Source: Neisseria bacilliformis | GTDB lineage: Bacteria > Pseudomonadota > Gammaproteobacteria > Burkholderiales > Neisseriaceae | DNA length: 64,000 nt | Reading direction: 5' to 3' | Assembly (NCBI RefSeq): GCF_014055025.1 | Contig: NZ_CP059571.1 | Coordinates: forward strand, 248,001 to 312,000 | Shown: in pieces, positions 31,783 through 42,283 of the stretch | Numbering within the stretch: the first letter of the stretch is position 1 | Layout of the letters: every line of letters begins with the position of its first letter | Made by a program: the position numbers and the translations under genes | Notes under the pieces: model-generated | What the model was told of the DNA's origin: nothing | Databases searched by the model: none | Seen by the model: only the letters and a program-made list of their open reading frames with translations

Positions 31783-32186
31783 CTTAACCGATACGGGCGG
31801 AAAAACAACAAACTCACCACCGTTAGTAACATTGCTACGCCTTTTTATCATAAAAGGTTGCAAAAGGTTTGGAATATGCATATAAGCTCGGCCAGCCCGT
31901 TTGCTGTATCCGTGAAACACAGGCGGGAACAAATCCGAAAATCTGCGAAATCCGGCCGGAAAACGTCATATCGTGCTAAACCTCCGCAAACGGGGCGAAC
32001 AAGAAAAAAAAGCCGTCTGAAAACCCTTTGGGCATGAGCCGAAAGAAATTTTCAAACGGAGGCGGGCAGGAAAAGTGCGATGGCACGAAATTTGCAGCAA
32101 AGTTTGGTTGCGATGCAGCCGCTGCCGCCGTGGCAAAACACGGCAGGTGCCGGCGGCAGAAAAGTTTTAACAAAAAGGAAGTCAAA

Positions 32187-35100
32187 ATGAACAAAATCTA
32201 TCGTACTGTTTACAATGAAACGACCAACACATGGACGGCCGTGGCCGAAATTGCCAAGGCGAAAGGGAAGTCCAAATCCAGTAAAACCGCCATAGCGAGT
32301 GTTGCCGTGGCCGGTGCACTGCTTTCCTCTGCCGCCGTGCAGGCAGAAGGGCTTAAATGGGGAAACGGTGCGACCGCAGAAGGCGACGAATCCATCGCCA
32401 TGGGCGTGAACAGCACGGCCAAAAGCAAGTACACAATCACATTGGGAGCGAGAGCGAAAAACGAAACCAACGGCGAAGCTGCCGTTATCATTGGTAACGA
32501 TGCCAAGGCAATAGCGGATGTAAACGCCAGCACTGCGGCAAATACAATGGGTCAGCAGGTTGCCATCGGTGAGGCAAGCGTCGCCAACAGCCAATCCGTC
32601 GCGCTGGGTGCGCAAACCTATGCGACCGGACAGGCTTCGATTGCCATCGGTGGCGACGATTTGGGTAATAACGACAGTAAAACGTCCGCCGGAAAATATA
32701 CCGGGGCAGATGCATGGCGCAATTACGCCGGTCAGCCGATTACTGTGGAAGGCGTTACCACCAAAGACGCTTCCGACCCCGCAATCGGCTTTACCAGTAC
32801 CACGGCAAGCGGACGCGGTTCGATTGCTTTGGGTCATATGGGGCAGTCCACCGGCAAAGCCTCCGTTGCAATCGGTGCGGATTCCCACGCGGAAGCCGAC
32901 GGTGCAATTGCCGCAGGCATGGTGTCGCAGGCCACAGGCGCGGCCGCAGTGGCGGTCGGTGTCGGTGCGCAGGCTAAAAAAGACCATGCAACGGCCATCG
33001 GCCTGAAAGCAGTGGCTTCCGAGACCAATTCGTTTGCGGCAGGAACTAATGCGCAAGCGTCAAAAACCGGCGCAACTGCCGTCGGCGTGGACAGCAATGC
33101 GTTGGCAGAGCATTCCATCGCCATCGGCAGCAATGCGAAAGTCAGCCAGACCGCGCCGACAACCACTCAAAACACCAAAGGCGTTTCCGACGCATCCATC
33201 GCCATCGGCCAGACTTCGTATGCCGAAGGTTTGGCAGCCGTTGCCGTCGGTGCGAAAACCAAGGCAATCGAACATGCCGTAGCCATCGGCACGGAAACCA
33301 AGGCCGAAGGTCTGAGTGCCGTGGCCATCGGCTCGAACAGCCAGGCAACCACTACCAACTCCGTCGCCGTTGGTACGACCAGTAAGGCTTCGGGTGCAAA
33401 TGCAACCGCGCTGGGTCAGGCGACACAGGCATTGGGTCAGTCGTCCGTTGCCGTCGGCGACGGTGCTGTTTCCACAGCGGCCGGCTGGGGTACGGCTGTC
33501 GGCAATTCGTCCGAAGCGCGTTACGGTGCGTCTGCTTACGGCCATCTGGCCAAAGCCACTGGCGAGAAAAGCGTAGCCATCGGCGACAGTGCCAACGGTG
33601 CGGGAAACAATGCCGTGGCCGTCGGCAATACCGCCGCCGGACAAGGTGAAAATGCCGTGGCAATCGGCAATACCGCCGCCGCATCCGCCTCTAACGGCAT
33701 CGCGGTCGGCAACAATGCCAAAGCGAAAGCTGTCGCTGCGGTTGCCATTGGCGCAAGCGCAGGTCTGACTTCCGACGAAACCACCAAAAACACCAACACC
33801 CGCGCCGTTATGATCGGTGTCAGTGCAGGTCATAGCGCACGCGATATTAACGATTCCGTGTTGATCGGCTGGGAAGCCGGTAAAGATTTAGGCAAAGCCA
33901 ACCAGTCCAGCAGCAACAATATCGGTTTGGGTGCGCGCGCGTTGTCGGGTGCAAACGGCAGTACCAACGTTGCCTTGGCAACCCAGGCCGGATTGGGCGC
34001 AACCGGCAACAACAACTTCTTCGGTCAAGTAAACGCAGGTTCATACGTAACCGGCGACAACAACGTTGCCATCGGCAAAAACGCCTTGAAAGGCACGGAT
34101 GCGGCCAAGCTCACCGTCAGCGATGCCGTTGCATTGGGTACGGACGCTACGGCAAACAAAGACAAAGCCGTCGCTTTGGGTGCAGGCGCAAGCACGGCCA
34201 CCGAAGCCAAACAAATCAGCACGGCCACTGTCGGCTCGACCACTTACGGCGGCTTTGTCGGCAAAGTAAACGCCACCGGCTACCAAGTCTCCGTCGGCGC
34301 GAAAGATGCCGAACGCCAGCTCAAACACGTTGCCCCGGGCGAAATCTCCTCCACCAGCACCGATGCCATCAACGGCAGCCAGCTTTACAGCGTGGCCAGC
34401 GGCCTGCAAACGCAGATTGCCAACATCTCTTCTTCCGGCGGCAATGTACATTTCTATCATGTAAACGGCGCATCTACCGACAACAACTACAACAACGACG
34501 GCGCGACCGGCGCGAAGGCGATGGCCGCAGGCATCAATGCCAAAGCCAAGGGCGCAAGCTCGATTGCCATCGGTAATGCAACCGTTGAAAAGGAATCCAC
34601 TGCCAACGGCGCGGGGACAGCCAAAACCGAATCCGAAGGTGCGATTGCCATCGGCGATACTTCCTATGCCGCCGGCACACATGCGATTGCCATGGGACAG
34701 GCACGCGCCGAGCAGAAGGATTCCATTGCCGTAGGCTCGAATGCCCGCTCCACCGCCGAATACACCGTCGCCATCGGTCAAAACGCGGTATCCTCGAAAC
34801 AAAATGCCATTTCCATCGGCAGCAGCTCCAATACCGCAGCCGACAACAGCATCGCCATCGGCAGCAACAGCTCCACATCATCCAACGGCTCGGTAGCCTT
34901 GGGTCACGGCTCGCAGGCAACCCGCGACGCCATCAATGCGACTGCCGTCAAAGCTACGTCCACTGCCGCTGTGGCGCAGAACCAGGTTTATGCTTTGGAT
35001 GCGGCCAGCAATACCGATAAAAACAACATCGCCGCTACGGTTAAAGGCGCGTCCGGCGCGGTTTCCGTCGGTACGCAGCAGGATACCCGCCAAATCATCA

Positions 35101-38100
35101 ACGTGGCCGCCGGTACGGAAGACTCCGATGCGGTAAACGTGGCGCAGTTGAAATCCGTCGCCAATCTGGTGAAAAACACCACGCCGACCAAAGTCGCCCC
35201 GGCAACAGGCAGCAAAATCACAGTTAACAACAAAGGCACGGCCACCGCGCCCGATTATGAATTGGATCTGTCCGCAGATGCCAAAACCAGCCTGAACAAA
35301 GCCGATACGGCGATGCAGAACTTCAAAGTCGCCACCGTTCCGAGCAAAGGCGGTACACAGACTGCCGGAGAGAACGTAGGCAACGGCGAAACCCTGACTT
35401 TTGAAGCCGGCGACAATGTCAGCATCAGCCAAACCGGCAAAAAAATCACTATCAATGCCACAGGCTCAGGCGCAAGCAAAGTCGAAGCCGCAACAAACAG
35501 CCCGATTACCGTGGGCGGCACAGGCACAGCCACCGATCCTTATAAAGTCGGTGTAAGCACTGTCGCGCTGACCCATACTGCACGCGGCGTGGTCAACACG
35601 CCGGCTGCAACCGACGCAGGCAAGCTGGTTACCGCCGGCGAAATCGCCAAAGCCATTAATAATTCCGGCTTCATCGCCACTTCCGGCAAGAGCGGAACGG
35701 GTCAGGTGAGCGGTACGAGCGAAGAGCTTGTAAACCCCGGTGATATCGTGAAATTTACTGCGGGCAACGGCATTAAAATCGAACAAAACAAGGGTGAGTT
35801 CACCATCAGCAATATCGCCGGCGGTGCTTCCGGTACGCCCAGCGTAGTTGAAGCGGCAACCAACAACCCGATTACCGTGGGCGGTACAGGTACGGCCGCC
35901 GATCCGTACAAAGTCGGCGTAAGCACCGTTGCATTGACCAACTCGGCAACCGGTACGGTTAATGCGCCGAATGCGACCGACTCAGGCAAACTGGTTACCG
36001 CCGGCGAAGTTGCCAAAGCCATCAACGGCAGCGGCTTCACGCTGAAAACTTCCGCAGTCAGTGGCGAGGGTGAAAAAGATGCCGCATCAACCACCGATGA
36101 AATCGTCAACCCCGGCGATGCCGTGGAAATGATTGCCGGCAAAAACCTGAAAGTGAAACAGTCTGCCGACGGAAAAGTAACCTACTCGACCAAAGACGCG
36201 GTTCAGTTTAATACCGTAACTGTCGGTGGTGTCAGCATTGACCAGAATAACGGCATCAATGCGGGCAGCAAAAAAATCACCAATGTTGCAGCAGGATCGG
36301 TCAGTGCAACGAGTCGCGATGCCGTAAACGGCAGCCAGCTGTACGCCGTTGCCAACAACCCGCTGACCTTCGCAGGCGACAGCGGCACGAACGTTGAACG
36401 CAAACTGGGCAGCACCGTGAACGTCAAAGGCGGCGTAACCGACGCGGCCAAACTGAGCGACAACAACATCGGCGTAGTAGCCAACGGCACAGACGGGTTG
36501 AACGTCAAACTGGCCAAAGAGCTCAAAGACCTGACCAGCGCCGAGTTCAAAGACGCTGCGGGCAACGTGACCAAAGTTGGCGGCAACGGCGTTACCATCA
36601 CGCCGAAAGCTGCGGGCAAGAAACCGGTGAGCCTGACTTCAAACGGCCTCAACAACGGCGGCAACACCGTTACCGGCGTAGGTTCCGCACTGAACCTCTA
36701 CCCTGCCGGTACACCCAAAACAGCCGGACTGCTCGACCTCTCCAACCTGAGTGCCGACCAGAAAGCCAGCGCGGCCACCGCAGGCGATCTGGCCAACATG
36801 GGCTGGGTAGTCAGCTCCGACAAAACCACTGGTAACGAAAGCCAGGCATTCAGCGGCCAGGTTAAAAACGCAGGCGAAGTCGAATTTGTCGGCACAGGCG
36901 CGGCCAACGTCTCCGCCAAAACCGTCAACGGCAAACACACCGTAACCGTCGGCGTAGACAGCGCCAGCATTGCCGACAGCATTGCCCAGCCCGTCGTCTA
37001 CACCAAAGCCGACGGCAGCAAAGCCTACAAACGCGGCAACAAATTCTACGACGCGCAAACCGGCGGCAACGAAATCCAACCCGCCGACGTCATCGCCTCC
37101 ATGAACAACGCCGCGGGCAGCACCACCGCCCCGATGACCCTTGCCAACGTCAAAGACAACCTCAAAGACGCAGCCAACGGCAAAGCGGTCAGCACACTGG
37201 CAGGCGGCAGCCGTGCCGACCTGACCAAAGGCAAAGGCGGCAGCAATGCGGCGACCGTCAACGACGTACTCAACGCAGGCTTCACCGTCCAAGGCAACGG
37301 CGTAGCGAAAGACTTCGTAACCCACGGCGACACCGTCAACTTCGCCAACGGCCAAGGCACAGTCGCCAAAGTCGAAAGCAAAGACGGCGTAACCAAAGTC
37401 AGCTTCGACACCCCGATGCAGTACGTTGACAACACCGGCAGAGCCAGCACCGATCCGACCAACACCGTCAGCCTCGTCGGCAAAGACAGCGGCAAACCCG
37501 TACAGGTTAAAAACGTCGCAGCCGGCACACTGAGCAACACCAGCACCGATGCCGTAAACGGCAGCCAGCTGTACGCCGTTGCCAACAACCCGCTGACCTT
37601 CGCAGGCGACAGCGGCACGAACGTTGAACGCAAACTGGGCAGCACCGTGAACGTCAAAGGCGGCGTAACCGACGCGGCCAAACTGAGCGACAACAACATC
37701 GGCGTAGTAGCCAACGGCACAGACGGGTTGAACGTCAAACTGGCCAAAGAGCTCAAAGACCTGACCAGCGCCGAGTTCAAAGACGCTGCGGGCAACGTGA
37801 CCAAAGTTGGCGGCAACGGCGTTACCATCACGCCGAAAGCTGCGGGCAAGAAACCGGTGAGCCTGACTTCAAACGGCCTCAACAACGGCGGCAACACCGT
37901 TACCGGCGTAGGTTCCGCACTGAACCTCTACCCTGCCGGTACACCCAAAACAGCCGGACTGCTCGACCTCTCCAACCTGAGTGCCGACCAGAAAGCCAGC
38001 GCGGCCACCGCAGGCGATCTGGCCAACATGGGCTGGGTAGTCAGCTCCGACAAAACCACTGGTAACGAAAGCCAGGCATTCAGCGGCCAGGTTAAAAACG

Positions 38101-41100
38101 CAGGCGAAGTCGAATTTGTCGGCACAGGCGCGGCCAACGTCTCCGCCAAAACCGTCAACGGCAAACACACCGTAACCGTCGGCGTAGACAGCGCCAGCAT
38201 TGCCGACAGCATTGCCCAGCCCGTCGTCTACACCAAAGCCGACGGCAGCAAAGCCTACAAACGCGGCAACAAATTCTACGACGCGCAAACCGGCGGCAAC
38301 GAAATCCAACCCGCCGACGTCATCGCCTCCATGAACAACGCCGCGGGCAGCACCACCGCCCCGATGACCCTTGCCAACGTCAAAGACAACCTCAAAGACG
38401 CAGCCAACGGCAAAGCGGTCAGCACACTGGCAGGCGGCAGCCGTGCCGACCTGACCAAAGGCAAAGGCGGCAGCAATGCGGCGACCGTCAACGACGTACT
38501 CAACGCAGGCTTCACCGTCCAAGGCAACGGCGTAGCGAAAGACTTCGTAACCCACGGCGACACCGTCAACTTCGCCAACGGCCAAGGCACAGTCGCCAAA
38601 GTCGAAAGCAAAGACGGCGTAACCAAAGTCAGCTTCGACACCCCGATGCAGTACGTTGACAACACCGGCAGAGCCAGCACCGATCCGACCAACACCGTCA
38701 GCCTCGTCGGCAAAGACAGCGGCAAACCCGTACAGGTTAAAAACGTCGCAGCCGGCACACTGAGCAACACCAGCACCGATGCCGTAAACGGCAGCCAGCT
38801 GTACGCCGTTGCCAACAACCCGCTGACCTTCGCAGGCGACAGCGGCACGAACGTTGAACGCAAACTGGGCAGCACCGTGAACGTCAAAGGCGGCGTAACT
38901 GACGCGGCCAAACTGAGCGACAACAACATCGGCGTAGTAGCCAACGGCACAGACGGGTTGAACGTCAAACTGGCCAAAGAGCTCAAAGACCTGACCAGCG
39001 CCGAGTTCAAAGACGCTGCGGGCAACGTGACCAAAGTTGGCGGCAACGGCGTTACCATCACGCCGAAAGCTGCGGGCAAGAAACCGGTGAGCCTGACTTC
39101 AAACGGCCTCAACAACGGCGGCAACAGAATCACCAATGTTGCGCCGGGCACAGCCGATACCGATGCAGTCAACGTTTCCCAGTTGAACCAGGCGGCAGCG
39201 AAAGCGGCCAACAAAGTTGAAGCGGGCAGCAACATTGTCGTTACCCCGACTCAGAACAAAGACGGCAGCACCACTTACAAAGTGGCCACCGCCAACGATC
39301 TGAAAGCCAACAGCTTCACTGCGGGCGGCGTATCGCTTTCTGCCAAAGGCATCAACGCTGGCAACAAAGCCATCACCAACGTTGCCGCCGGTGTGAACAA
39401 CACCGACGCAGCCAACGTCGGCCAGGTGAAAGCGGCGAAAACCGAAGTCAAAGCCGGCACCAATATTGCTAGCGTTGTGGAAACCAAAGGCAGCAACGGC
39501 CAAAGCATTTACACCGTGAATGCCGACGGGGCGAGCGTTTCGGCCGGCTCTACCGCCCTCACCGTTACCAAAGGCAGGAAAAACGCCAACAACGTAACCG
39601 ACTACGCCGTGGATCTGTCGGCCAAAACCAAAGCCGACATCGCCAAAGGTGCGGCCGCGAAAGACGCGCTGGACACCAAAGGCCTGACCTTCACCGGCGA
39701 CACCGGCACAACCGGCGTGAAAAAACTGGGCAGCCAGGTAGCCGTAACCGGCGACAGCAACATCACCACCAAAGCCGACGCTTCGGGTGTGAATGTCGCC
39801 CTCAAACGCGATCTGAACGTGGACAGCGTTACCGCCGGCAACACCACCGTGAACAACGGCGGCGTTACCATCAAATCGCCGACCACCGGTAATCCGAACA
39901 ACACCGTGAACCTGACCGCAAACGGTCTGAGCAACGGCGGCAAGCAGATTACCAATGTTGCCAGCGGTTTGAACGGCAGAACCGTCGCCCAGATCAAAGC
40001 CGAAGGCAGCAAGGCGGCAGAATGGAACAATGCGGCGACCGTTGGCGACTTGACCCAGGTTGAAAACAACGTAACCAATATTTCCAACAATTACAGCAAA
40101 ACCCTCGGCGGCGACAACAACCAGTATGTCGACAACACCGGCAAGCTGACCCCCGCCGGCAAAGTTGCCCTAAAAACCTACAACGTTTCCGGACAAAAAG
40201 AGTACGTCAACAACTCGGTCATTTCCGCCATCAAAAACATGAACGAACAAGGCATCAAGTTCTTCCATGTGAACGACGGACAAACCCAGATCGACCAGGC
40301 CACCAACACCGAGGATTCCAGCGCGTCCGGCAGATACGCCGTTGCTATCGGCTACCAGGCCAAAGGCAACGGTGTGGATGCCGTAGCGATGGGCAGCCAG
40401 TCTGTGGCTTCCGGCCAGAACGGCATCGCCATCGGCAAAGGCGCGCAGGCAACCGGCAAGAATTCCATCTCCATCGGTACAGGCAACAAGGTATCGGGAG
40501 CGAATTCCGGCGCGTTCGGCGACCCGACCATTATGGACGGAGCCAACAGCTACAGCGTCGGTAACAACAACACCGTCGCCACAGACAACACCTTTGTCTT
40601 GGGCAACAACGTTACCGCCACCAAAGCCAACTCCGCGTTCTTGGGCAACAAGTCGGGCAGCTTCTCGCAAACCGGCTCGACCACCGACGCAACCACCGGC
40701 GTACATAAAGCCGTATCCGGCAGCAGCAACTACACCTACCTGGGTGCGAACGACGCCAATGTTGCGGGCGTAAGCGACACAGTCGGCATCGTCAGCGTCG
40801 GCAACGCAAGCGAAACCCGCCAGGTACAAGGCGTGGCCGCAGGCGTGATTTCCGCCACCAGCACCGACGCCATCAACGGCAGCCAGCTGTACTACACCAA
40901 CCAGGCCATCAACCAAAACATCAACAACCAAGTGGTCAACATGGGCAACCAGTTGAACCAGAAAATTGACGATGTGGCGGCCGACTCCAAAGCCGGAACG
41001 GCTGCGGCGATGGCAGTGGCCGGTCTGCCTCAAGCCTACCTGCCCGGTAAGAGCATGATGGCCGTCGGCGGCAGCGTGTACCGCGGCGCAAGCGGTTACG

Positions 41101-41213
41101 CCATCGGCTACTCCAGCATTTCCGACGGCGGAAACTGGATCATCAAAGGCACCGTAACCGGCAACTCGCGCGGCCATGTCGGCGGCACCGCTGCCGTAGG
41201 CTACCAGTGGTAA
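32187..41213 (+). CDS. Giant trimeric autotransporter adhesin (YadA/Hia-type, type Vc)
   Basis: The 3,008-residue protein begins with the extended signal peptide region MNKIYRTVYNETTNTWTAVA and a signal sequence cut near residue 53 (AAVQA-EGLK). The head is rich in YadA-type SVAIG repeats (residues ~60-600 and ~780-940). Neck motifs of the form TSTDAINGSQLY recur. The stalk has Trp-ring-like (AGDLANMGWVVSS) and KG-like (VLNAGFTVQGNGVAKDF) modules, many in an exact tandem duplication. More SVAIG head repeats lie near the C terminus. The protein ends with the beta-barrel anchor GTAAVGYQW. It should form a homotrimeric surface fibre for adhesion. The start is ATG 32187 with AAGGAAG upstream. Two further genes follow, probably in the same operon. 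Confidence 0.95.
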   Translation: MNKIYRTVYNETTNTWTAVAEIAKAKGKSKSSKTAIASVAVAGALLSSAAVQAEGLKWGNGATAEGDESIAMGVNSTAKSKYTITLGARAKNETNGEAAVIIGNDAKAIADVNASTAANTMGQQVAIGEASVANSQSVALGAQTYATGQASIAIGGDDLGNNDSKTSAGKYTGADAWRNYAGQPITVEGVTTKDASDPAIGFTSTTASGRGSIALGHMGQSTGKASVAIGADSHAEADGAIAAGMVSQATGAAAVAVGVGAQAKKDHATAIGLKAVASETNSFAAGTNAQASKTGATAVGVDSNALAEHSIAIGSNAKVSQTAPTTTQNTKGVSDASIAIGQTSYAEGLAAVAVGAKTKAIEHAVAIGTETKAEGLSAVAIGSNSQATTTNSVAVGTTSKASGANATALGQATQALGQSSVAVGDGAVSTAAGWGTAVGNSSEARYGASAYGHLAKATGEKSVAIGDSANGAGNNAVAVGNTAAGQGENAVAIGNTAAASASNGIAVGNNAKAKAVAAVAIGASAGLTSDETTKNTNTRAVMIGVSAGHSARDINDSVLIGWEAGKDLGKANQSSSNNIGLGARALSGANGSTNVALATQAGLGATGNNNFFGQVNAGSYVTGDNNVAIGKNALKGTDAAKLTVSDAVALGTDATANKDKAVALGAGASTATEAKQISTATVGSTTYGGFVGKVNATGYQVSVGAKDAERQLKHVAPGEISSTSTDAINGSQLYSVASGLQTQIANISSSGGNVHFYHVNGASTDNNYNNDGATGAKAMAAGINAKAKGASSIAIGNATVEKESTANGAGTAKTESEGAIAIGDTSYAAGTHAIAMGQARAEQKDSIAVGSNARSTAEYTVAIGQNAVSSKQNAISIGSSSNTAADNSIAIGSNSSTSSNGSVALGHGSQATRDAINATAVKATSTAAVAQNQVYALDAASNTDKNNIAATVKGASGAVSVGTQQDTRQIINVAAGTEDSDAVNVAQLKSVANLVKNTTPTKVAPATGSKITVNNKGTATAPDYELDLSADAKTSLNKADTAMQNFKVATVPSKGGTQTAGENVGNGETLTFEAGDNVSISQTGKKITINATGSGASKVEAATNSPITVGGTGTATDPYKVGVSTVALTHTARGVVNTPAATDAGKLVTAGEIAKAINNSGFIATSGKSGTGQVSGTSEELVNPGDIVKFTAGNGIKIEQNKGEFTISNIAGGASGTPSVVEAATNNPITVGGTGTAADPYKVGVSTVALTNSATGTVNAPNATDSGKLVTAGEVAKAINGSGFTLKTSAVSGEGEKDAASTTDEIVNPGDAVEMIAGKNLKVKQSADGKVTYSTKDAVQFNTVTVGGVSIDQNNGINAGSKKITNVAAGSVSATSRDAVNGSQLYAVANNPLTFAGDSGTNVERKLGSTVNVKGGVTDAAKLSDNNIGVVANGTDGLNVKLAKELKDLTSAEFKDAAGNVTKVGGNGVTITPKAAGKKPVSLTSNGLNNGGNTVTGVGSALNLYPAGTPKTAGLLDLSNLSADQKASAATAGDLANMGWVVSSDKTTGNESQAFSGQVKNAGEVEFVGTGAANVSAKTVNGKHTVTVGVDSASIADSIAQPVVYTKADGSKAYKRGNKFYDAQTGGNEIQPADVIASMNNAAGSTTAPMTLANVKDNLKDAANGKAVSTLAGGSRADLTKGKGGSNAATVNDVLNAGFTVQGNGVAKDFVTHGDTVNFANGQGTVAKVESKDGVTKVSFDTPMQYVDNTGRASTDPTNTVSLVGKDSGKPVQVKNVAAGTLSNTSTDAVNGSQLYAVANNPLTFAGDSGTNVERKLGSTVNVKGGVTDAAKLSDNNIGVVANGTDGLNVKLAKELKDLTSAEFKDAAGNVTKVGGNGVTITPKAAGKKPVSLTSNGLNNGGNTVTGVGSALNLYPAGTPKTAGLLDLSNLSADQKASAATAGDLANMGWVVSSDKTTGNESQAFSGQVKNAGEVEFVGTGAANVSAKTVNGKHTVTVGVDSASIADSIAQPVVYTKADGSKAYKRGNKFYDAQTGGNEIQPADVIASMNNAAGSTTAPMTLANVKDNLKDAANGKAVSTLAGGSRADLTKGKGGSNAATVNDVLNAGFTVQGNGVAKDFVTHGDTVNFANGQGTVAKVESKDGVTKVSFDTPMQYVDNTGRASTDPTNTVSLVGKDSGKPVQVKNVAAGTLSNTSTDAVNGSQLYAVANNPLTFAGDSGTNVERKLGSTVNVKGGVTDAAKLSDNNIGVVANGTDGLNVKLAKELKDLTSAEFKDAAGNVTKVGGNGVTITPKAAGKKPVSLTSNGLNNGGNRITNVAPGTADTDAVNVSQLNQAAAKAANKVEAGSNIVVTPTQNKDGSTTYKVATANDLKANSFTAGGVSLSAKGINAGNKAITNVAAGVNNTDAANVGQVKAAKTEVKAGTNIASVVETKGSNGQSIYTVNADGASVSAGSTALTVTKGRKNANNVTDYAVDLSAKTKADIAKGAAAKDALDTKGLTFTGDTGTTGVKKLGSQVAVTGDSNITTKADASGVNVALKRDLNVDSVTAGNTTVNNGGVTIKSPTTGNPNNTVNLTANGLSNGGKQITNVASGLNGRTVAQIKAEGSKAAEWNNAATVGDLTQVENNVTNISNNYSKTLGGDNNQYVDNTGKLTPAGKVALKTYNVSGQKEYVNNSVISAIKNMNEQGIKFFHVNDGQTQIDQATNTEDSSASGRYAVAIGYQAKGNGVDAVAMGSQSVASGQNGIAIGKGAQATGKNSISIGTGNKVSGANSGAFGDPTIMDGANSYSVGNNNTVATDNTFVLGNNVTATKANSAFLGNKSGSFSQTGSTTDATTGVHKAVSGSSNYTYLGANDANVAGVSDTVGIVSVGNASETRQVQGVAAGVISATSTDAINGSQLYYTNQAINQNINNQVVNMGNQLNQKIDDVAADSKAGTAAAMAVAGLPQAYLPGKSMMAVGGSVYRGASGYAIGYSSISDGGNWIIKGTVTGNSRGHVGGTAAVGYQW
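36318..39125 (+). repeat. Tandem in-frame duplication in the adhesin: two full 1,230-bp units plus a partial third
   Basis: The block starting GATGCCGTAAACGGCAGCCA recurs at 36318, 37548 and 38778. Units one and two appear identical over 1,230 bp (410 codons). The third is identical for about 345 bp except for one silent change (GTAACC to GTAACT at about 38900) and then diverges at GGCAACA. Each unit carries one Trp-ring-like module, one KG-like module and one neck. Confidence 0.93.
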
Positions 41214-41226
41214 TGTCGTAAACGTT

Positions 41227-41262
41227 TTCAGACGGCCTCTTTTATAATAGAGGCCGTCTGAA
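41227..41262 (+). terminator. Inverted DUS hairpin between adhesin and lipoprotein genes
   Basis: TTCAGACGGCCT (41227-41238) and AGGCCGTCTGAA (41251-41262) flank a short loop that contains TATAAT at 41243-41248. It could attenuate transcription out of the adhesin gene and hold a -10 box for the next gene, though no matching -35 is evident. Confidence 0.5.
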
Positions 41263-41286
41263 AACCAAACTTAAAGGATTTGAAAC

Positions 41287-41811
41287 ATGAAAAATACACA
41301 ATTTCTGAAAACGGGCGCGGCACTGGCCGCCGCCTGCCTCCTGGCTGCCTGCGCCACCAAAAGCAAAATTACCGCCGAGGGCACGACCGACAACCCCGTG
41401 TTCCCCAAACCCTATTCCCTCACCTTCAACAAAGACCGGGGCACCTTCCCCACCTATGACGAGCTGGACAAAATGCGCCCCGGTCTGACCAAAGACGACA
41501 TCTACAAAATCCTCGGCCGCCCGCACTACGACGAAGGCATGTACGGCGTGCGCGAATGGGACTACCTCTTCCACTTCTACACCCCCGGTGTCGGCGTCGA
41601 TCCCGACAACACCTCCGGCGTGGACGGCATCACCACCTGCCAGTACAAAGTGATTTTCGACAAACACAAATTCGCCCGCAGCTTCCACTGGAATCCCGTA
41701 TTCCCGCAAGGCGCGGTCTGCCCGCCGCCGCAGCCCGAGCCGCCCAAAGCCGAGCCGCAGGTCATCATCCGCGAAGTCGAAGCCGCCCCGGCGAAAAAAA
41801 TCCGCCAGTAA
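41287..41811 (+). CDS. SmpA/OmlA (BamE-like) lipoprotein linked to the adhesin, TpgA-like
   Basis: The 174-residue lipoprotein has lipobox LLAAC (Cys about residue 21). It carries a BamE/OmlA-type domain seen in PTYDELDKMRPGLTKDDIYK, ILGRPHYDEGMYGVREWDYL and CQYKVIFDKHKFARSFHW. The same arrangement forms the N-terminal half of TpgA, which is encoded beside the trimeric autotransporter Ata in Acinetobacter and anchors it to peptidoglycan through an OmpA-like domain. Here the protein stops after a proline-rich linker (CPPPQPEPPKAEPQVIIREV) with no OmpA domain. The next gene starts 12 bases on. It is probably in the outer membrane facing the periplasm. The role in adhesin assembly is inferred. 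Confidence 0.8.
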   Translation: MKNTQFLKTGAALAAACLLAACATKSKITAEGTTDNPVFPKPYSLTFNKDRGTFPTYDELDKMRPGLTKDDIYKILGRPHYDEGMYGVREWDYLFHFYTPGVGVDPDNTSGVDGITTCQYKVIFDKHKFARSFHWNPVFPQGAVCPPPQPEPPKAEPQVIIREVEAAPAKKIRQ

Positions 41812-41823
41812 GACCGCAGCGCG

Positions 41824-42252
41824 ATGTTGAGAACCTTATGGGCACTGATGCTGCTGGGCGCGGGCCTTACCGCTTCCGCCTCCGGCAGCATCGATGATTT
41901 CAAACAGAGCAGAAAAGTGGTGGTCGATACCGCCAATGCCGAACTCTGCTTCGCCGACAGCGGACAATGCCATCCCGTTCTGGTGGGCAAAACCACGCCG
42001 AAAGGCCGGTTTGACATGAAAATCTACAAAACCGACAAGCGCGGCTACGGCGGCGACATCATCGGTTTCAAGCAGGAAAAAGACTTCCTCTTCGCCCTGC
42101 ACCGCGTGTGGACGCTCAAACCTTCGGAACGCCGTTTGGAACGCATCAAATCGCCGCTGGCCGCCGACCGCATCATGACCAACGGCTGCATCAACGTCAG
42201 CGACGACGTGTACGAACAGCTTAAACAGTATTTCGTATTGGAAGTTATCTGA
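41824..42252 (+). CDS. YkuD-type L,D-transpeptidase-like protein
   Basis: The 142-residue protein has an N-terminal signal peptide or anchor (WALMLLGAGLTASASG) and a compact YkuD fold. VGKTTPKGRFDMKIYK is followed by His93 in FALHRVW and the catalytic-type Cys122 in MTNGCINVSDDVY. The usual motif is S-x-G-C-[IV]-R; here Thr replaces Ser and Asn replaces Arg, so activity is uncertain. L,D-transpeptidases cross-link peptidoglycan or attach proteins to it in the periplasm. Placed 12 bases after the TpgA-like gene, it may supply the cell-wall link that gene lacks. A strong terminator follows. Confidence 0.82.
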   Translation: MLRTLWALMLLGAGLTASASGSIDDFKQSRKVVVDTANAELCFADSGQCHPVLVGKTTPKGRFDMKIYKTDKRGYGGDIIGFKQEKDFLFALHRVWTLKPSERRLERIKSPLAADRIMTNGCINVSDDVYEQLKQYFVLEVI

Positions 42253-42258
42253 CCAAAG

Positions 42259-42283
42259 CGGGGCGCAAGCCCCGTTTTTTTTT
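42259..42283 (+). terminator. Rho-independent terminator of the adhesin operon
   Basis: CGGGGC, loop GCAA, GCCCCG, then nine T, 6 bases past the stop of the transpeptidase-like gene. It is independent of DUS. Confidence 0.9.

Follow-up and report, generated by a model that had tools for sequence, protein, structure and literature searches.

How is a giant trimeric adhesin held to the cell wall when the lipoprotein encoded behind it lacks the OmpA domain carried by its relative TpgA? We asked this question of a locus in Neisseria bacilliformis at which the gene of a trimeric autotransporter adhesin is followed by the genes of a short BamE-type lipoprotein and a small YkuD-like protein (Table 1). 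The window, meaning the whole stretch of 64,000 nucleotides that was analysed, comprises positions 248001-312000 of a 2.49-Mb single-contig genome, labelled G000; other G labels denote the genomes compared with it, and L labels denote loci. We find that the three-gene arrangement is genuine and goes beyond a chance proximity of genes, and that the lipoprotein is best read as combining the same barrel cap as TpgA with a different wall part. Our preferred reading, to which we give a probability of about one half, is that of a split TpgA: the lipoprotein would cap the adhesin barrel, while its tail and the YkuD-like protein would together replace the wall-binding OmpA part, in trans.

A TpgA-like lipoprotein with a tail in place of OmpA

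The adhesin open reading frame spans 32028-41213, and translation from the ATG at 32187 gives a protein of 3008 amino acids (aa) with Pfam matches to ESPR, YadA_head, YadA_stalk, Trp_ring and YadA_anchor, which identify it as a type Vc autotransporter. The lipoprotein has the lipobox LLAAC and a BamE/SmpA-OmlA domain (PF04355, 57 bits against a cut-off of 23.2, residues 52-132). A Pfam scan of the lipoprotein gave no match to the OmpA domain PF00691, whereas this domain was found in all six long relatives scanned. In the place of OmpA, the C-terminus has a linker rich in proline, followed by the conserved tail IIREV...KIRQ. The best sequence match of the lipoprotein in the Protein Data Bank (PDB) is TpgA (9vnj_B), with an E value of 7.7e-18 when an alignment served as query and 1e-8 for the single protein, supporting a relation to the N-terminal domain of TpgA (TpgA-N). 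The TpgA model NF047726 gives it 49 bits, where the curated cut-off is 350, and gives six long Neisseriaceae forms 133.6-169.5 bits, likewise under that cut-off. With the BamE equivalog model NF008585, the lipoprotein reaches 13.8 bits and so falls short of the cut-off of 93; the same genome has a separate BamE-domain gene at G000:C1:1785764. The YkuD-like gene begins 12 bases past the lipoprotein stop codon, and its product has Cys122 within TNGCINV. A preliminary description of the locus had listed a 3,008-residue type Vc adhesin, a SmpA/OmlA lipoprotein with a proline-rich tail and no OmpA part, likened to TpgA, and a small YkuD-like protein 12 bases on with its cysteine in TNGCINV, and our results bear it out on all of these points.

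Relatives of the lipoprotein in Neisseriaceae show two architectures, a short form with linker and tail (about 150-180 aa in most) and a long form with OmpA in the layout of TpgA. In our family-wide typing the label "long" rests on length, the OmpA domain having been scanned in six long forms and aligned in twelve. Among 30 short lipoproteins chosen for alignment, with near-duplicates dropped by eye (the tree described below has 49 tail forms), the tail residues Ile160, Arg162, Glu163 and Arg173 are invariant. In addition, G005, G025, G028, G029, G040 and G041 encode small BamE-like proteins that make up a third group (147-191 aa, judged by open frame); the three sequences examined (L272, L273 and L274) have neither the tail nor the length of an OmpA form. 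The meningococcal counterpart of the lipoprotein is presumably NMB1898. The accessible part of PMC3088726 lists NMB1898 as a putative lipoprotein up-regulated in blood.

The tail and the YkuD-like protein occur in the same genomes

YkuD relatives are present in 35 of the 46 genomes of the genus and in 37 of the 83 Neisseriaceae genomes, and the tail-bearing lipoproteins occupy the identical set of 37 (Fisher p 2e-24, ignoring relatedness; in G014 the tail counted belongs to a broken gene). The 46 Neisseriaceae genomes without YkuD comprise 26 with long lipoproteins only and 20 with neither form. Every one of the 35 YkuD genes of the genus sits 13-85 bases downstream of a short lipoprotein gene, broken in two cases, and YkuD adjoins none of the long forms found in the genus. 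The same association that was first seen at the window locus, a separate YkuD gene where the OmpA part is absent, is therefore found across the family. An order-wide search of 399 genomes returned YkuD matches in 22, of which 10 belong to the genus and 12 lie outside Neisseriaceae; in these 12 the match is always partial and falls within a larger open frame (best E values 2e-11 to 4e-7).

We built a tree of 86 BamE domains, 49 from tail forms and 37 from long forms, leaving out three BamE-like proteins with neither tail nor OmpA (G005x, G029x and G041x), the G015 remnant of less than 100 aa, the long forms of G062 and one of those of G038. The tree requires a minimum of 8 changes between the forms, 6 of them forced by well-supported branches. 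The long form of G001, for example, nests in the short-form clade of the window's protein, and its BamE domain is up to 82% identical. The tail and OmpA forms have thus been interchanged repeatedly, 6-8 times, on one BamE-type domain. An independent-pairs test, in which genomes holding both forms are uninformative, comprised 6 pairs; on average, YkuD agreed in direction in 3.6 of these, ran opposite in 0 and was undecided in 2.4.

Pairing with one barrel class in trans

Adhesin, lipoprotein and YkuD genes form a contiguous triad in 16 of the 37 YkuD-bearing Neisseriaceae genomes. Within the genus, 14 of the 35 lipoprotein-YkuD pairs have an adhesin gene directly upstream and 21 have none adjoining, which rules out a fixed three-gene operon as the functional unit. 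All 46 genomes of the genus carry some YadA-type anchor, and we aligned all 123 anchors found, coining the names class A and class B for two barrel types. Class A comprises 41 anchors in 40 genomes, and where a lipoprotein adjoins them, it is of the window's type or one of its long relatives. Class B comprises 21 anchors, 20 of which lie beside a second short lipoprotein, about 50% identical. For the stand-alone pairs with an intact lipoprotein, a class A adhesin is found elsewhere in the genome in 19/19 cases, and in the two genomes with a broken lipoprotein, G014 and G015, no class A barrel was found. Conversely, each of the 40 genus genomes with a class A barrel carries a matching lipoprotein that is intact (Fisher p 9e-5, with relatedness ignored and the divergent long lipoprotein of G009 scored as a non-matching type). 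In G014 (L084) the lipoprotein gene is broken by an internal stop, in G015 (L089) it is reduced to a remnant, and the YkuD frame is open in both.

Eleven genomes of the genus have two intact tail lipoproteins and one YkuD gene, which points to a YkuD-like protein that would be shared and act in trans. Thus, the partnership persists but not as a fixed operon, and it must work in trans. Outside the family, Nicoletella semolina (Pasteurellaceae) has the full triad with the tail IIREI...LIRQ, which suggests a transfer between families. A scan of named genomes with two short peptide patterns gave 20 loci, a small number of which are only distantly related, and the true range may be wider. The three-gene order pointed out in the preliminary description consequently holds for part of Neisseriaceae and for Nicoletella and fails for the pairs that stand alone. 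The same description had held that conservation of the pair where no trimeric autotransporter is present would tell against it. Judged by neighbouring genes, most pairs of the genus do lack an adhesin; judged by genome they do not, since an anchor is present in every case, and by barrel class 19 of the 21 have class A elsewhere and the other two have the broken lipoproteins.

Some of the stand-alone pairs share a setting. By eye, 6 of the 21 lie between leuS-like and ppk-like genes, and the gene just upstream of the pair forms one cluster in three genomes (L069, L070 and L082); the C-terminus of L069 appears OmpA-like by eye.

Barrel residues predicted to face the lipoprotein

TpgA-N has been solved in complex with the AtaA barrel (PDB 9VNJ), with salt bridges from AtaA K3576 to TpgA D65 and from AtaA D3601 to TpgA K64 (PMC13082670, accessible part). 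When numbering is counted along AtaA chain A from residue 3523, as we inferred it, the PGK lysine of the window barrel aligns with K3576 and the SDG aspartate with D3601. Of 42 barrels that lie beside a lipoprotein, 40 have both residues, compared with 9 of 59 barrels that are unlinked and belong to other classes; 22 class A or B barrels without an adjacent lipoprotein stand in neither arm of this comparison. On the side of the lipoprotein, K69 and D70 align with the K-D that we take as TpgA K64/D65, and K-D is present in 29 of the 30 short forms. By homology with the solved complex, the lipoprotein is predicted to bind the class A barrel.

Transcription signals

The gap between the adhesin and lipoprotein genes, which measures 56-94 bases in 17 of the 20 such gaps listed, contains at the window locus a hairpin made of two facing DNA-uptake sequences (-32.1 kcal/mol, z -6.4) without a U tract. 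Because this hairpin is strong, co-transcription of the adhesin with the lipoprotein and YkuD genes is doubtful. A similar inverted repeat was seen by eye in several of the 20 gaps. No comparable hairpin lies between the lipoprotein and YkuD genes of the window, and the likely transcription unit is lipoprotein-YkuD, with the adhesin as a neighbour. The strong terminator said to close the unit is present as a 10-pair stem followed by a T run; a terminator scan of the region gave 4 such sites against a mean of 3.1 in shuffles, and the scan alone is weak evidence. The uptake sequence GCCGTCTGAA occurs in 105 exact copies in the window (1-64000), where 0.14 are expected, and in zero exact copies inside the three genes from 32187 on.

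The YkuD-like protein

The YkuD-like protein scores 19.3 bits with PF03734, against a cut-off of 23.4, and two of its relatives score 29.3 (L097) and 14.0 bits (L066). In an alignment of 29 rows, chosen from the 38 YkuD matches by dropping near-duplicates by eye, His93, Cys122, Cys42 and Cys49 are invariant (29/29); His93 and Cys122 presumably form the catalytic pair. The usual motif of L,D-transpeptidases, SHGCxR, is absent from these rows, of which 28 have TNGCINV and one THGCINV. Where the canonical-looking L127 of the same genome has the Arg of its SHGCVR, the window's protein has Asn, and its His and Cys are 29 residues apart versus 16 in L127 and 22 in the YafK-like L128 (the latter two by eye). 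Because of the Asn and the longer spacing, a standard cross-linker seems to us less likely than a hydrolase or a transferase with a specialised role. According to the accessible part of PMC10653827, an Arg is exposed close to the Cys in many L,D-transpeptidases; in hydrolytic relatives, loops L1 and L3 are longer and L3 includes a helical segment. A PDB search with the YkuD-like protein returned only chance-level matches and thus assigned no class by sequence. L144 in G057, a divergent small YkuD gene, lies next to a canonical-looking L,D-transpeptidase gene.

Competing explanations

On the reading that we prefer, the BamE-type domain of the lipoprotein would sit on the barrel trimer of the adhesin as a cap over its periplasmic loops, much as TpgA-N does on AtaA. 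Two parts would share the task of holding the wall that falls to OmpA in TpgA: a flexible proline-rich arm that ends in the conserved tail, and a dedicated cysteine enzyme of the YkuD type. The tail would most likely dock to the YkuD-like protein, which would work on wall peptide stems at the adhesin site, and a single YkuD-like protein would serve all tail-bearing lipoproteins of the cell in trans. This proposal builds on four observations: the lipoprotein exists in two architectures, tail and YkuD occupy exactly the same genomes, the two forms have replaced each other repeatedly, and one barrel class goes with the pair at the genome level. Barrel binding, the tail-YkuD contact and the enzymatic act are predictions from these comparisons. 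In outline, the proposal agrees with the inference of the preliminary description that the lipoprotein contacts the adhesin barrel and the YkuD protein links or remodels the wall there; a linking role is the less certain part, given a motif unlike SHGCxR and a tail with no fixed lysine. A broader version, in which two interchangeable wall holds (non-covalent OmpA, or tail plus YkuD enzyme through an undescribed linkage or docking) are swapped on one barrel-binding domain, is a tentative idea that we regard as doubtful.

Several observations weigh against the split-TpgA reading. G014 keeps an open YkuD gene despite its broken lipoprotein and with no class A barrel found, which speaks against strict coupling, and since G014 and G015 are draft assemblies of about 70 and 200 contigs, a class A barrel may have been missed in them. 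The lipoprotein is also present in G030 and G033 (68% and 81% complete), where no class A barrel was found. Pairing looks looser outside the genus: G059 has the lipoprotein without a class-A-like barrel, and G078 has a class-A-like barrel (L275, 66% identical), for which neither the 3.5 kb examined nor the whole genome at E 0.001 gave a lipoprotein match. One of the 38 YkuD copies of the family, the second copy in G057 mentioned above, is not beside a lipoprotein. The BamE tree rests on 104 columns and drew long-branch warnings, the genome counts are phylogenetically non-independent, and the median p of the independent-pairs test is 0.125, which is non-significant though the direction agrees. 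Hia also has the PGK lysine together with an SDN aspartate, and no TpgA-like partner is reported for Hia in the accessible part of PMC13082670, so that the PGK/SDG residues alone are not diagnostic. We dropped K69/D70 as diagnostic lipoprotein contacts, because the BamE of the window's own genome has R-D at that place.

Rather than anchoring the adhesin, the lipoprotein could aid barrel trimerisation or exit from the assembly machinery in a SadB-like way, with the YkuD-like protein trimming the wall for passage. A BamE-type domain and a genome-level pairing with one barrel class would suit such an assembly helper, as would a TNGCIN motif without the Arg of many transpeptidases that is seen in L127. 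Simulations in the accessible part of PMC13082670 show TpgA-N reinforcing the barrel even without wall coupling. However, the position of the tail repeatedly bears OmpA, a wall-binding type, and this recurrence points to wall contact as the task of the swapped part, which leaves a helper role unlikely in our judgement. The YkuD-like protein might alternatively join the lipoprotein tail to the peptidoglycan stem in the manner of Braun-type attachment, so that the adhesin would be tethered covalently. Tethering of lipoproteins and outer-membrane proteins is a known activity of enzymes of the YkuD family (PMC12729407, accessible part), and the tail occurs only where YkuD occurs. At least one Lys stands in the linker or tail of 29 of the 30 aligned short forms, and in 19 of the 30 a Lys lies four or five residues from the end. 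Yet 11 of the 30 have no Lys near the end, L086 lacks Lys altogether past the residue that follows the last Trp of its domain, and no Lys at a fixed position of the tail was found in the alignment. Of the 30 proteins, 27 end in Gln and none in Lys (G006, outside that set, does end in Lys), and the active-site motif departs from SHGCxR. With no Lys at a fixed position, Braun-type attachment is not favoured, and covalent attachment via a conserved tail lysine was rejected; we place the covalent explanation as a whole below the assembly helper in likelihood.

The least probable of the alternatives, and one that we think quite improbable, is a general outer membrane-wall maintenance pair whose position beside adhesins is incidental. 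It would account for the 21 of 35 pairs without an adjoining adhesin, including the six between leuS-like and ppk-like genes. It sits poorly, however, with class A barrels that never lack the lipoprotein in the genus (0/40), with a lipoprotein that is broken in both pair-only genomes where no class A barrel was found, and with the recurrence of the triad in 16 of the 37 YkuD-bearing family genomes and in Nicoletella.

If the split-TpgA reading is correct, the wall anchoring of giant adhesins is modular: the domain that binds the barrel can be coupled to the wall through a binding domain in one design and through a tail plus an enzyme in the other. The swap would have been run several times in nature, making functional equivalence directly testable, and the little-studied lipoprotein-YkuD pair of 35 of the 46 Neisseria genomes would gain a role.

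Features of the locus

Table 1 Features of the adhesin-lipoprotein-YkuD locus, in window positions
Feature	Position	Strand	Evidence
Trimeric autotransporter adhesin, type Vc, 3008 aa, class A barrel	32187..41213	+	Open reading frame, Pfam, barrel alignment
C-terminal membrane-anchor part of the adhesin, 68 aa, with PGK lysine and SDG aspartate	41007..41210	+	
Inverted pair of DNA-uptake sequences, 17-pair hairpin, in the adhesin/lipoprotein gap	41224..41265	.	Folding and sequence
TpgA-N/BamE-type lipoprotein, short form, 174 aa	41287..41811	+	Lipobox, PF04355, alignment, PDB sequence match
Small YkuD-like protein, 142 aa, TNGCINV, signal-like N-terminal stretch (by eye)	41824..42252	+	
Intrinsic-terminator-like hairpin, 10-pair stem then T run	42255..42278	+	Terminator scan

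The adhesin gene contains three near-identical copies of a repeat (36282-36581, 37512-37811 and 38742-39041) with a period of exactly 1230 bases, copies 2 and 3 being 95% and 94% like copy 1. Tandem Repeats Finder, run on the adhesin with a period limit of 500, found nothing. A second giant trimeric autotransporter in the window's genome (L125, G000:C1:1795082-1795264) has a barrel of another class that lacks the contact lysine, and there is no adjoining lipoprotein gene.

Comparison with known systems

Bioinformatics has placed pairs of trimeric autotransporters and TpgA-like proteins in Neisseria among other genera (PMC13082670, accessible part). Our literature search found no description of the lipoprotein-YkuD form, within a coverage that recent works on TpgA-like partners and trimeric autotransporters fall outside, and it is not established that this form is undescribed.

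The closest known system is TpgA of Acinetobacter, the partner of AtaA/Ata. Like TpgA, the window's lipoprotein has a BamE/SmpA-OmlA domain and is encoded directly after a trimeric autotransporter; unlike TpgA, it has no OmpA domain and has instead a tail and a separate YkuD gene. The long TpgA-type lipoproteins of Neisseriaceae share with it a related BamE domain and the same barrel class, but carry OmpA, and none was found in the genus with an adjoining YkuD. SadB of Salmonella, the partner of SadA, is likewise a lipoprotein helper tied to a trimeric autotransporter. It is said to have been described by Grin et al. in 2014 as a trimeric lipoprotein, and it is not known to have a YkuD partner. 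With the YkuD family at large, which includes L,D-transpeptidases, L,D-carboxypeptidases and DpaA/YafK, the small protein of the window has in common a YkuD-like domain with an invariant Cys and His, and it differs from them in having TNGCIN for SHGCxR, a His-to-Cys spacing of 29 residues and two further invariant cysteines.

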